Shown in pieces: positions 25,522 through 44,566 of a DNA stretch of 49,141 nucleotides. The stretch's first letter is position 1, and the number at the start of each line of letters is the position of its first letter. This DNA comes from Microcoleus sp. FACHB-1515. GTDB taxonomy: Bacteria > Cyanobacteriota > Cyanobacteriia > Elainellales > Elainellaceae. The notes below the pieces were generated by a model. That model was not told where the DNA came from. It ran no database searches and worked only from the letters and a program-made list of their open reading frames with translations. The DNA is taken from positions 1-49,141 of the forward strand of contig NZ_JACJPO010000057.1 of assembly GCF_014696105.1 (NCBI RefSeq), in the 5' to 3' direction. Position numbers and translations under genes: made by a program.

Positions 25522-26424
25522 TTACCTTCTAGTTTGACTTCGCACAATTGCAAATATAAAAAGAACTCCAGCAGGTATCAACAGAACTCTAAAGATGATG
25601 AAAAGAATTGCTTTGTATCCTGCAATAAATGATGTGTAAAGACGAGGAGAAGAAAAACAGAGAATCACATCCTGGCTGCCGCAAATTAGCTGCTTCAAAG
25701 AATTGTATCCAAAAAAAGAGCATATCAATGAAAACAAAGCAACACCTATCCATCCAAAAATTTCAGACAACACAACACCTCTTCGATCGCGATCGATCTC
25801 ATTCAGTGATGTACTATTAGGCAAAGTATTTTTGGCTGTTTGTTCTTGCTGGCTCCTATGGTGTCTTTGTACGATGCCTGTGTACCATCGAGAGATATTT
25901 TGACCTGCTAGTGCTCCTGCACACCCAGCAACTAGAGACGCAAGAACAGAATTAAATCCGATAAAAACTGCTGTAGTAGGTGTCATCCGCCTGGAAGAAA
26001 AGAGCCATAGTCCGAAGACTGCTGTTCCTCCTCCCGCTGTAGAAGCGCTAATCAACTCGACTAATATTCTGTAGAAAAAAACAGATCTCAGTGGATGAAA
26101 AAACTGGCAAGTTATTATGCTCAGCAATAGCCCATTAACTAGTCCCAGTACTAAACCTAATCCAGCCCCAAGCCATAGCGTGAAGATAGAATAAGTGAAA
26201 TAGCCGACACCAAAAAACGCACCCATAATACACCCGGATATTAGCCCTATTGCTGCATTCCTTACAACAATAAGCAATGCTATTTTCGATTTTGAAAAGA
26301 TAGTCCGGCTATTCAAATTTAACTTATTATTGATAGCCATATCTTTTGCCTGAGTAGATGCGCTTCCACTTTGTCTTTCTGCGTAAAATTCCTGTGTTTC
26401 CGCATCGTAAACTATTCCAGGCAA
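25522..26424 (-). CDS. Predicted multi-pass membrane protein of unknown function
   Basis: Up to 300 residues. Hydrophobic segments include IALLIVVRNAAIGLISGC, a glycine-zipper-like stretch with GAGLGLVLGLVNGLLL, and two or three more towards the C-terminus. The start is uncertain: the frame opens at TTG 26424 (MPGIVYDAETQEF) and the first ATG is at 26340. The gene is more AT-rich than its neighbours, and HIP1-type cores are nearly absent except near 25785-25797, suggesting recent arrival or fast evolution. No known family recognised. Confidence 0.6.
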   Translation of the reverse strand: MPGIVYDAETQEFYAERQSGSASTQAKDMAINNKLNLNSRTIFSKSKIALLIVVRNAAIGLISGCIMGAFFGVGYFTYSIFTLWLGAGLGLVLGLVNGLLLSIITCQFFHPLRSVFFYRILVELISASTAGGGTAVFGLWLFSSRRMTPTTAVFIGFNSVLASLVAGCAGALAGQNISRWYTGIVQRHHRSQQEQTAKNTLPNSTSLNEIDRDRRGVVLSEIFGWIGVALFSLICSFFGYNSLKQLICGSQDVILCFSSPRLYTSFIAGYKAILFIIFRVLLIPAGVLFIFAIVRSQTRR

Positions 26425-26495
26425 ACAGGCAGGAATCTTTATTTTTCAGTTTTGAGTGCGACAAAAATCGATCGCCCCCACCCCAAACTACCCTA

Positions 26496-26524
26496 TTGAC
26501 ATCCCCAAACAAATCCGCTAAGGT
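26496..26524 (+). promoter_or_regulatory. Candidate promoter of the first leader RNA unit
   Basis: A perfect -35 TTGACA (26496-26501) is followed after 17 bases by TAAGGT (26519-26524), a weak -10. Transcription would start near 26531, where homology with the second copy also begins (CTAATGCYGCT). Confidence 0.45.
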
Positions 26525-26530
26525 TTCTCT

Positions 26531-26759
26531 CTAATGCCGCTTCCCGGTGGCAGGTGTTTCGGTTCCTAGACCCAAAGTCTAGCCACGCGACTCGAAGCTG
26601 TTCCCGCAGACATCGAGCCGCTGACCCGTCAAACTGATCACGCCAGTCGAGCGGGCTACGGAGATCTTACCCTCCTAGCCGCCCCGATTTGTCTTGGTTT
26701 GACATTCTGGGGTGGCTAGATTTTTGGGTTTTCCTCGACTACTCAAACAAGGAAAACTC
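26531..26759 (+). ncRNA. Structured 5' leader RNA, copy 1
   Basis: A cis-acting leader of about 230 bases before the small-protein gene at 26760, homologous to 37210-37432. Visible elements are: a 5' hairpin 26566-26582 (CTAGAC/GTCTAG); a second stem at 26591-26617 (CTCGA/TCGAG and CTG/CAG); a conserved block CCGCTGACCC; a third stem (ACTG/CAGT); a terminator-like hairpin 26675-26719 with 11 pairs followed by TTTTT; and GTTTTCC (26728-26734) able to pair with GGAAAAC (26751-26757), hiding the AAGGA ribosome site. The 5' stretch 26571-26584 can instead pair over 14 bases with 26714-26728. I cannot match it to a named riboswitch class. Confidence 0.7.
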
Positions 26760-27041
26760 ATGAATGACTTCGATTCTTCGTCCACTGGAGGCGAATCAGC
26801 TTCGCCTACGCCGGAAATTCGATCGACTCCCAAAATCAAGGGCGATAATCGCACCCCAATCAAGCACATCTTGATCGGCACGCCGCAAGTTGTCGAATTC
26901 ACGATGCGACGGCTCGATCAGCTTGGCTATGTGGATGCGATCGAGTGGGCGCAACCGCTCAACCTGAATGAACCGCTCAACATCGTGCCTGAACCGGGTG
27001 ACGTGATTAGCTTGCTGGTGCGCTATTTGCGATTCCAGTAG
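26760..27041 (+). CDS. Small conserved cyanobacterial protein, paralog 1
   Basis: A 93-residue protein from ATG 26760, preceded by AAGGA. An acidic, Ser/Pro-rich N-terminus (about 30 residues) leads to a conserved core, IKHILIGTPQVVEFTMRRL, then GYVDAIEW and PEPGDVISLLVRYLRF, suggesting a small alpha/beta fold. It is about 80% identical to the 92-residue protein at 37433 over the last 71 residues. Small cyanobacterial proteins with a KHILIG-like core are familiar to me from memory, but I know of no function. It forms a single-gene unit with its own leader RNA and an inverted repeat after the stop. Confidence 0.8.
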   Translation: MNDFDSSSTGGESASPTPEIRSTPKIKGDNRTPIKHILIGTPQVVEFTMRRLDQLGYVDAIEWAQPLNLNEPLNIVPEPGDVISLLVRYLRFQ

Positions 27042-27047
27042 ATCAGC

Positions 27048-27083
27048 GGGGCGATCGGCCAAAAATTGCAGAGCGATCGCCCC
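27048..27083 (+). terminator. HIP1-based inverted repeat after paralog 1
   Basis: GGGGCGATCG (27048-27057) pairs with CGATCGCCCC (27074-27083) around a 16-base loop, seven bases after the stop. There is no T-run, so efficiency is uncertain. The same arrangement, with T-run, follows paralog 2. Confidence 0.55.
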
Positions 27084-27152
27084 TTACTGAAGATTGATGT
27101 TCTTTTCGCAACCAGCCTTCATCTTGGAGAAAGCTCGATCGCTTCTTCCTCC

Positions 27153-36875: not shown

Positions 36876-37178
36876 ATGGATTCTTCTCGTCCTCGAAAGC
36901 TGCTGGATCAGGTGCGTGATGTGCTGCGAGTGAAGCATTACTCCTACCGCACTGAGCAAAATTACGTTTACTGGATTCGTCGCTTCATTTTTCACGACAA
37001 GCGCCATCCGATCGAAATGGGTGCAGCAGAAGTGACGGGGTTCTTGACGCATTTAGCGGTTGATGAACAGGTCGCGGCAGCAACGCAGAACCAAGCTTTG
37101 AGCGCGATCGCATTTCTCTACCGCTTTGTATTGCAGCAGAACTGCGAAGTCCGATCGATGATTGAAAAAACTGCTTGA
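36876..37178 (+). CDS. Truncated tyrosine recombinase, integron-integrase-like N-terminal domain only
   Basis: A 100-residue frame from ATG 36876. It reads KLLDQVRDVLRVKHYSYRTE, then a Y-V-W-I-R-R-F-I-F-H pattern and a helix ending FLYRFVLQQ, which closely follows the N-terminal SAM-like core-binding domain of IntI/XerC-type recombinases. The catalytic domain with its R-H-R-Y residues is absent; a stop follows and the next 50 bases are not its continuation. It cannot recombine by itself. It is either a relic or a free DNA-binding domain. The -35 box of the second leader RNA unit overlaps its stop. Confidence 0.8.
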   Translation: MDSSRPRKLLDQVRDVLRVKHYSYRTEQNYVYWIRRFIFHDKRHPIEMGAAEVTGFLTHLAVDEQVAAATQNQALSAIAFLYRFVLQQNCEVRSMIEKTA

Positions 37179-37204
37179 CTTTGCCGAATAATTCCGTTAG
37201 TGTT
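37175..37204 (+). promoter_or_regulatory. Candidate promoter of the second leader RNA unit
   Basis: TTGACT (37175-37180), 18 bases, then TAGTGT (37199-37204). It overlaps the last codon and stop of the recombinase fragment. The arrangement mirrors that before copy 1. Confidence 0.4.
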
Positions 37205-37209
37205 GCTTG

Positions 37210-37432
37210 CTAATGCTGCTAAATGACAGCAAAGACCGATCGCTTAGACCCAAGGTCTAGCCACGCGACCCGAAGCTGGTAACGACAGACTTCGAGCCGC
37301 TGACCCACCAAACTGATACTGGCAGTTGATAGGCTAACTGGGATCATACCCTTCTAGCCGTCTCGATTGCTGCGTCTTGCGTCGGGGCGGCTAGACTTTT
37401 GGGTTTTCCTACTCACTCAAACAAGGAAAACC
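37210..37432 (+). ncRNA. Structured 5' leader RNA, copy 2
   Basis: Homolog of 26531-26759. The same elements are visible: 5' hairpin 37245-37259 (TAGACC/GGTCTA), second stem with CGAAGCTG and CAGACTTCG, the conserved CCGCTGACCC and CAAACTGAT, a third stem AACTG/CAGTT, and a terminator-like hairpin with arms 37354-37366 and 37382-37394 (13 pairs, two of them G-T) followed by CTTTTGGG. GTTTTCC (37403-37409) faces GGAAAAC (37425-37431) over the ribosome site. The 5' stretch 37249-37262 can pair over 14 bases with 37389-37403, with substitutions relative to copy 1 that preserve pairing. Confidence 0.7.
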
Positions 37433-44493: not shown

Positions 44494-44566
44494 GGGCATG
44501 TAGCTCAGTGGATAGAGCACCAGGTTCCGGTCCTGGGTGTCGGGGGTTCGAGTCCCTCCATGCTCG
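44494..44566 (+). tRNA. tRNA-Arg (anticodon CCG)
   Basis: Cloverleaf by eye: acceptor GGGCATG/CATGCTC with one G-T pair, D-arm with AGCTCAGTGGATAGAGC, anticodon stem CCAGG/CCTGG around TTCCGGT (anticodon CCG), and T-arm GGGGGTTCGAGTCCCTC. Discriminator G at 44566. CCA is not encoded. Confidence 0.95.

Follow-up and report, generated by a model that had tools for sequence, protein, structure and literature searches.

An amplified cyanobacterial leader RNA with two exclusive folds and copy-specific loops, a putative antisense-controlled attenuator

The window analysed here, a stretch of 49,141 nucleotides from Microcoleus sp. FACHB-1515 (contig NZ_JACJPO010000057.1), contains a structured leader in front of a small-protein gene, and the locus raises the question of what such a leader responds to. 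A preliminary description had proposed a riboswitch-like or attenuator RNA, present in two copies, whose ligand or partner might be the small protein itself. The elements on which that proposal was built are all found in the sequence (Table 1): a 14-base closing helix with one bulge and one G-T pair (P1), a local hairpin and an 11-pair stem with a T-run, both read directly, and a hairpin that hides the ribosome site. The second copy is likewise present, although the count of two was too low, as the genome holds 21 distinct places. A loose promoter pattern similar to that of copy 1 lies no more than 110 nt ahead of P1 in 111 of 156 leaders, versus 1 of 156 for a control window further upstream. 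A stricter promoter and terminator scan of 26400-27100 reported neither the sense promoter nor the terminator of copy 1; the loop of the terminator exceeds the 8-nt limit of the scan.

Table 1. Positions of the leader elements and the genes behind them, numbered along the window
Feature	Position	Strand	Sequence, basis or remark
Sense promoter, copy 1	26496-26524	+	TTGACA, 17-nt spacer, TAAGGT; from sequence
Local hairpin CTAGAC/GTCTAG, copy 1	26566-26582	+	direct reading
Whole leader, copy 1	26570-26728	+	
P1 5' arm (segment 1), copy 1	26571-26584	+	CCCAAAGTCTAGCC; direct reading, covariation
P2 hairpin, copy 1	26587-26621	+	hypervariable loop L2 at 26601-26606; covariation, loop variability
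Conserved U-R-ACC(C) linking P2 to P3, copy 1	26622-26627	+	alignment
P3 hairpin, copy 1	26633-26647	+	hypervariable loop L3 at 26637-26643; covariation, loop variability
P4 hairpin GGCUA..UAGCC (segments 2 and 3), copy 1	26654-26680	+	covariation
L4 ATCTTA, copy 1	26664-26669	-	minus strand TAAGAT; candidate -10 box for antisense transcription
Predicted antisense RNA, copy 1	26571-26658	-	ends uncertain; from L4 position and loop pattern
Intrinsic terminator P5 (segments 3 and 4), copy 1	26675-26725	+	11 pairs 26675-26685/26709-26719, then ATTTTTGGG (direct reading); T-run 26721-26725; covariation
P1 3' arm (segment 4), copy 1	26714-26728	+	GGCTAGATTTTTGGG; overlaps terminator 3' arm, T-run and GGG; covariation
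Ribosome-site hairpin GGGTTTTCC/GGAAAAC, copy 1	26726-26757	+	GGGTTTTCCT (from 26726) paired with AAGGAAAAC (26749-26757), direct reading; GGG common to hairpin and P1; computed folds
Small-protein gene P0001, 93 aa	26760-27041	+	behind copy 1
Sense promoter, copy 2	37175-37203	+	sequence
Second leader	37248-37403	+	P1 37249-37262/37389-37403; terminator stem 37354-37394
Loops of second leader	L2 37279-37285, L3 37316-37322, L4 37343-37348	+	
Paralogous small-protein gene P0002, 92 aa	37433-37711	+	behind copy 2

The RNA is closed by P1 and contains the hairpins P2 and P3, with the sequence URACC 3' of P2, followed by P4 (GGCU..AGCC), which bears the loop L4 (AUNNUA), and the terminator stem P5. 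P1 and the full terminator stem are mutually exclusive because the 3' arm of P1 overlaps that of the terminator, as had been claimed. Four segments describe the alternatives: the AGCC-like 5' arm of P1 (segment 1), GGCU on the 5' side of P4 (segment 2), AGCC on the 3' side of P4 and in the 5' arm of the terminator (segment 3), and GGCU in the 3' arms of both the terminator and P1 (segment 4). By sequence and covariation, these segments can pair as 1:4 together with 2:3, the read-through state, or as 3:4, the terminator.

Covariation in a larger alignment, on which the preliminary description had staked its structure, exceeds shuffled controls for both folds. Among 99 distinct leaders, whose alignment was fitted with a model of the P1-state structure and is therefore biased towards it, double-sided changes occur in 41 of the 49 pairs of that structure (shuffled mean 27.0, with 0 of 500 shuffles as high) and 88.9% of cells are paired, compared with 76.9% after shuffling. 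Versions of the structure slid out of register reach a covariation score of at most 0.093 versus 0.397 for the actual register. The terminator stem tested alone has double-sided changes in 10 of 12 pairs, a value reached by none of 500 shuffles, and the two partners that compete for alignment column 235 both covary with it (13:235 and 152:235, each A-U/G-C). A third option, the pairing of segments 1 and 2, is available in 95.1% of cells and covaries weakly. The P1 and terminator folds are nearly equal in computed energy, about 1-3 kcal/mol apart in the window copies: up to the end of the T-run the values are -81.5 and -78.4 kcal/mol for copy 1 and -72.2 and -70.8 kcal/mol for copy 2, and up to the start codon they are -88.9 versus -89.8 and -78.3 versus -79.7 kcal/mol. 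By computation and covariation, the leader thus has exclusive terminator and antiterminator folds as in attenuators of the pIP501/pT181 type. An SD sequence could be recognised in 154 of 167 leaders; in the computed folds of 98 of these it is mostly paired and the GGG is paired as well, a count made without a shuffled control.

Rfam 15 contains no match to the leader in the window, and positions 26480-26800 stay empty even at E values up to 5. In these searches the leader matches none of the Rfam classes, in line with what had been suspected, including the glutamine riboswitch (Downstream-peptide and glnA motifs), which is also a cyanobacterial leader that precedes small proteins. Nor did Rfam match the leader in 20 loci, not all of which carry it, or in a further 8; only tRNA and group II intron matches were obtained. 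No published description of this RNA was found in the literature searched, the coverage of which excludes most subscription journals and preprints.

A covariance-model search of cyanobacterial genomes, the course proposed in the preliminary description, revealed how widespread the leader is. A first model (R1), built from 14 leaders, detected the RNA in 29 of the 36 genomes of the same taxonomic family. Rebuilt from 75 leaders, the model (R2) detected it in 104 of 388 genomes sampled from the class, or 50 of 160 genera, in a scan with stricter filters that scored at most seven candidates per genome. A draw from the phylum, which overlaps the class draw and for which the share of other classes is not given, yielded matches in 12 of 386 genomes, all 12 in the class of the window genome. 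The window genome (G000, 5.79 Mb, with the window as contig 53) has 21 covariance-model matches, compared with 11 leaders detected by DNA similarity alone. Copy number rises to 71 in genome G055, at least 44 matches in G147, and at least 76 in G200, where 76 of 76 scored candidates matched. These copy numbers seem far above those usual for cis-regulators. Named carriers came from a pattern scan for the terminator/P1 arm; among the matches listed, which cover 80 loci, the model recognised 68 leaders distributed over 67 loci. Carriers among these matches include Nodosilinea nodulosa PCC 7104 (L187, L188), Phormidium tenue FACHB-1052, Microcoleus vaginatus HSN003, and strains of Oculatella, Tychonema, Lyngbya and Leptolyngbya, and eight listed pattern loci from other phyla contain no leader according to the model. 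A DNA comparison of two leaders with plasmids gave no match. As delimited by model matches, the RNA family is large, extends over filamentous and other cyanobacteria, and has no Rfam counterpart in the stretches searched.

The genes behind the leader were surveyed with a profile built from 20 small proteins, each of which lies behind a leader of the first sets. Of the 127 leaders in these sets, 121 have a profile relative no more than 600 nt downstream (119 of 125 distinct), the misses being four contig ends, one leader without a recognisable gene (L150), and one split by an insertion (L158). Because protein searches supplied some of the first sets, this agreement is partly due to selection; leaders first found with the R1 scan or later were obtained by RNA or DNA search. 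The corresponding figures are 57 of 68 for the pattern set and 49 of 59 for those of its leaders that are absent from the first sets; the misses are seven contig ends, a group II intron (L206), a weak case (L172), and two Limnofasciculus leaders that precede other genes (L207, L224). Relatives follow 48 of the 51 leaders read in G200 (the other three lie at contig ends), and the profile found none in the 600 nt upstream of leaders on either strand. G055 shows that the leader is not bound to this one family. Among the 42 of its 71 copies that were read, 28 precede a second family with the motif DRGGQFISYR, 7 an LSPSQIRL-LWD family (2 counted in both), 4 a GGINTPG family and 2 a RYSLS family, while 1 precedes the small protein and 2 precede none. 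In G142, the ORF behind one copy (L308) resembles a DNA methyltransferase by reading. Going by the genes read and the profile matches, a single divergent small-protein family follows most of the leaders examined, whereas most of the G055 copies read stand before other genes.

The small proteins are mostly 66 to about 120 residues long with a conserved Trp. Two window proteins, P0001 among them, have no match in Pfam or NCBIfam, P0001 has none in PHROGs or PADLOC, and PADLOC matched none of three family proteins; the matches of other members were weak and looked like chance (Pfam E 0.048, PHROGs E 0.16). The profile compared with PDB sequences returned SAKe6BR (E 0.0091) and SAKe6AR (E 0.31) without a passing stretch. 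A phage origin was considered and set aside, one small protein having no phage match; relatives of that same protein are found on 12 plasmid records, all Nostocales by genus name. The RNA model found no leader in 13 loci with protein relatives, of which 9 were leaderless by eye and 4 are plasmid contexts (L163-L166). A clear HTH gene lies beside the plasmid relative at L164 and a weak HTH match at L165, with a tyrosine recombinase at L165 and L166 and replication genes at L163. Our guess is that the small proteins have dosage-sensitive accessory functions, perhaps of plasmid origin. One 167-aa ORF (L049, G055:C1 247114-250281) holds a tandem pair of small-protein domains.

Within this conserved scaffold, L2 and L3 vary even among near-identical leaders of the same cell. 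In 74 within-genome pairs, formed among 54 leaders of five chosen genomes and at least 80% identical when L2/L3 are disregarded (the pairs not being independent), the mismatch rate is 0.52 in L2 and 0.53 in L3, versus 0.08 at paired positions, 0.08 in L4, 0.15 in the terminator loop L5, and 0.06 in the junctions. In seven clusters of near-identical co-resident leaders from these 54, 62 of 95 columns in L2/L3 are variable versus 54 of 982 elsewhere (Fisher p 5.5e-44); L5, which belongs to the 982 and lies outside the predicted antisense span, accounts for 9 of 97. The 51 copies read in G200 have 44 distinct L2 and 47 distinct L3 sequences, compared with 14 for L5 and 13 for L4, and at least six of its leader pairs have identical cores yet different loops. 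Among 174 G200 pairs with a core difference of at most 6%, L2 is common to 3, L3 to 1, and both to 0. That no two of the 51 copies share both loops reflects diversity and not avoidance, since independence predicts equally few such pairs (about 0.02). In G000, two leaders are identical outside L2/L3 although their proteins share 48% of residues. This pattern suggests that L2 and L3 resemble an address that varies by copy, through which each copy might be turned off by its own antisense RNA; recognition loops that differ among co-resident copies are expected of plasmid antisense attenuators, and their recognition role here is presumed from that pattern. Alternatively, the loop divergence may be near neutral within an otherwise constrained RNA, though L5 is almost fixed. 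At fourfold-degenerate positions in the genes behind the leaders, pairs of this kind differ by 0.19-0.47 depending on the genome, beside 0.42-0.58 for L2 and 0.31-0.62 for L3; the duplications are therefore old, or the leader cores have been homogenised.

Other partners for the loops found little support. L2-L3 kissing in cis, as in purine riboswitches, was rejected, as 207 of 2000 shuffles scored as high with 75 leaders and z was 1.02 with 133. Self-complementary loops that would form dimers gave z values of 3.1 and 5.4 that were lost under a column-shuffled null (z -0.96 to 1.37). Eight tests of L2 or L3 with the SD region, coding sequence or upstream region of the same locus gave z from -1.5 to 2.42, nothing convincing; the highest was for L3 with bases 150-300 downstream.

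If the partner is an antisense RNA, its promoter should be sought on the opposite strand. The most conserved bases of a -10 box are the first T, the A at position 2 and the last T. The reverse complement of TANNNT is found inside L4 or no more than 4 nt away from it in 193 of 201 leaders, the eight exceptions all being AATAAT, and in 235 of 243 records of a larger set, which represent 233 distinct sequences and include many related copies. An extended TGn precedes the -10-like L4 in 156 of the 243. The minus strand of L4 is accordingly a putative antisense -10 box by sequence, although L4 could instead be a conserved RNA loop. At 15-19 nt spacing, no antisense -35 box was detected (best match 2.41 of 6 versus 2.74 shuffled; 2.70 versus 2.76 in leaders without TGn), and no antisense terminator was identified. 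The hypervariable loops all lie within the span of a leftward transcript from L4, and L5 lies outside it.

L2 itself has features of an antisense recognition loop. The motif YUNR, found in recognition loops of either RNA in antisense systems (PMC4485353), is present in L2 on either strand in 155 of 201 leaders versus 76.2 after shuffling, and in 77 of 114 unique loops versus 43.1 +/- 4.9, as would befit an attenuator of this kind. The composition of L2 is also reverse-complement symmetric: the loops score 2.76 bits and their reverse complements 0.93, versus -4.29 for reversed and -5.33 for complemented loops; L3 is not symmetric in this way. The end positions of L2 have the strongest coupling outside helices in the alignment. 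Of 75 unique seven-base loops, 24 have C..A there and 14 have U..G, and these are equivalent because U..G is C..A read from the opposite strand. Among 83 seven-base loops there are 10 exact reverse-complement pairs, where the two null models give 3.1 +/- 1.4 (0 of 2000 as high) and 4.3 +/- 1.5 (1 of 2000). If the loop were now and then inverted between its stem arms, reverse-complement loops would likewise be in excess. In G200, the L2 loops of L407 and L408 are exact reverse complements of that of L409, which suggests loop inversion or strand-equivalent kissing.

On balance, it is somewhat more likely than not that the leader attenuates transcription, with the ribosome-site hairpin coupled to the switch, under the control of a predicted antisense RNA from its own opposite strand. 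In the read-through state (1:4 with 2:3), P1 would take the GGG from the ribosome-site hairpin. The antisense transcript would start at the -10-like L4 and run back through L3, L2 and segment 1, would meet the nascent leader by contacts with the L3 and L2 loops, and by occupying segments 1 and 2 would leave 3:4 free to form the terminator. Copies with equal loops would repress each other, such that loops would diverge after duplication, like plasmid incompatibility groups. Attenuation is not the mechanism of every copy, since many G055 copies read as lacking a clear terminator T-run. There is about an even chance that cyanobacterial chromosomes hold dozens of such orthogonal sense-antisense switches (at least 76 in one genome), with a near-frozen scaffold and loops renewed after duplication.

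The plasmid pT181 shares antisense attenuation and loop contacts with the mechanism proposed here. For pIP501, one source describes antisense attenuation, loop contacts, YUNR, and loop mutations that create new specificities and incompatibility groups (PMC4485353); the antisense RNA of the present leader is predicted. Elsewhere, single-nucleotide effects are described for the loop of IncK RNAI (PMC10724649), and ColE1 compatibility is a further parallel among antisense systems (PMC9458437). In contrast to pIP501 and pT181, where rep genes are controlled, the leader family is found in genome assemblies in up to at least 76 copies and mostly precedes small proteins. We read the leader, by analogy, as a chromosomal, amplified counterpart of pIP501-type antisense-RNA attenuators; it would work like these but is not a member, because the genes downstream are mostly those of small uncharacterised proteins rather than plasmid replication initiators. 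At the pSYSA locus asRNA1/ssr7036 of Synechocystis 6803, also on a cyanobacterial plasmid, an antisense RNA covers the coding region of a small gene (PMC9978351). TAAGAT, the minus-strand reading of L4 in copy 1, stands 5' of the mapped antisense start of that locus. Homology to this locus was rejected, the RNA model reaching at best 6.1 bits (E 0.34) and the protein failing the family profile. What is new here is the variation of L2/L3 among co-resident near-identical leaders, the -10-like L4, and the symmetry and YUNR content of L2.

The main rival is a new class of metabolite riboswitch, an antitermination ON switch in which a ligand would bind the P2/P3/P4 junction, which carries the conserved URACC and AUNNUA, and would stabilise P1, and L2 and L3 would simply be unconstrained. 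The complex five-helix fold with its conserved junction and L4, the two-state expression platform, the several unrelated gene families under one RNA, and loops that diverge to a degree similar to fourfold sites are what such a switch would show. It leaves unexplained the reverse-complement symmetry of L2, has loops that differ where the remainder is identical while L5 is nearly fixed, and would require the extreme copy numbers of 71 and at least 76 per genome. A riboswitch is therefore possible but unlikely, and is judged less likely than the predicted self-addressed antisense attenuator. Of the preliminary interpretation, the attenuator with two exclusive folds and a ribosome-site hairpin stands, whereas the ligand reading does not stand as worded: a ligand or the small protein is possible as partner but accounts neither for differing loops in near-identical leaders nor for the -10-like L4. 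Ibs/Sib and other multi-copy type I toxin-antitoxin loci have paralogous antisense RNAs with variable recognition regions. If the present loci were of that type, the small protein would be toxic, the antisense RNA its antitoxin, and the variable loops would keep loci apart, which suits the multiple copies, the antisense-type loops and the small gene, and is compatible with the antisense attenuator mechanism; it is nonetheless improbable, as the family's proteins are larger than such toxins, the sequences read include no short hydrophobic peptide, PADLOC is silent on the three proteins compared, and the architecture is that of a transcription attenuator. Autoregulation, in which the small protein would bind its own leader through paralogue-specific loops, agrees with the presence of the family behind most leaders but is the least credible reading, given protein relatives without a leader, other genes behind the leaders of G055 and Limnofasciculus, and the G000 leaders that match outside L2/L3 despite their diverged proteins.

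If the antisense reading is true, RNA regulators orthogonal to one another have arisen by the dozen within single cells. They would then offer a natural experiment in specificity as well as parts for synthetic biology, and the origin of loop specificity could be tested directly.

Several minor features accompany the leaders. By reading, many terminators in G055 (L312-L341, L370-L381) are degenerate, yet P2, P3 and L4 are kept, and GC-rich palindromes lie behind several leaders of this genome. At L158 (G273), an insertion with a transposase-like ORF splits the small-protein gene directly behind the leader. The group II intron at L206 (6481-6629, minus strand, Rfam match) starts at most a few dozen bases behind the leader terminator, and the bases behind the leader at L130 read by eye like the same intron start, as if the terminator were an insertion target. 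Elsewhere in the window are a tRNA gene (44494-44566, RF00005) and short tandem repeats with 17-18 bp units (1179-1211 and 2424-2502).
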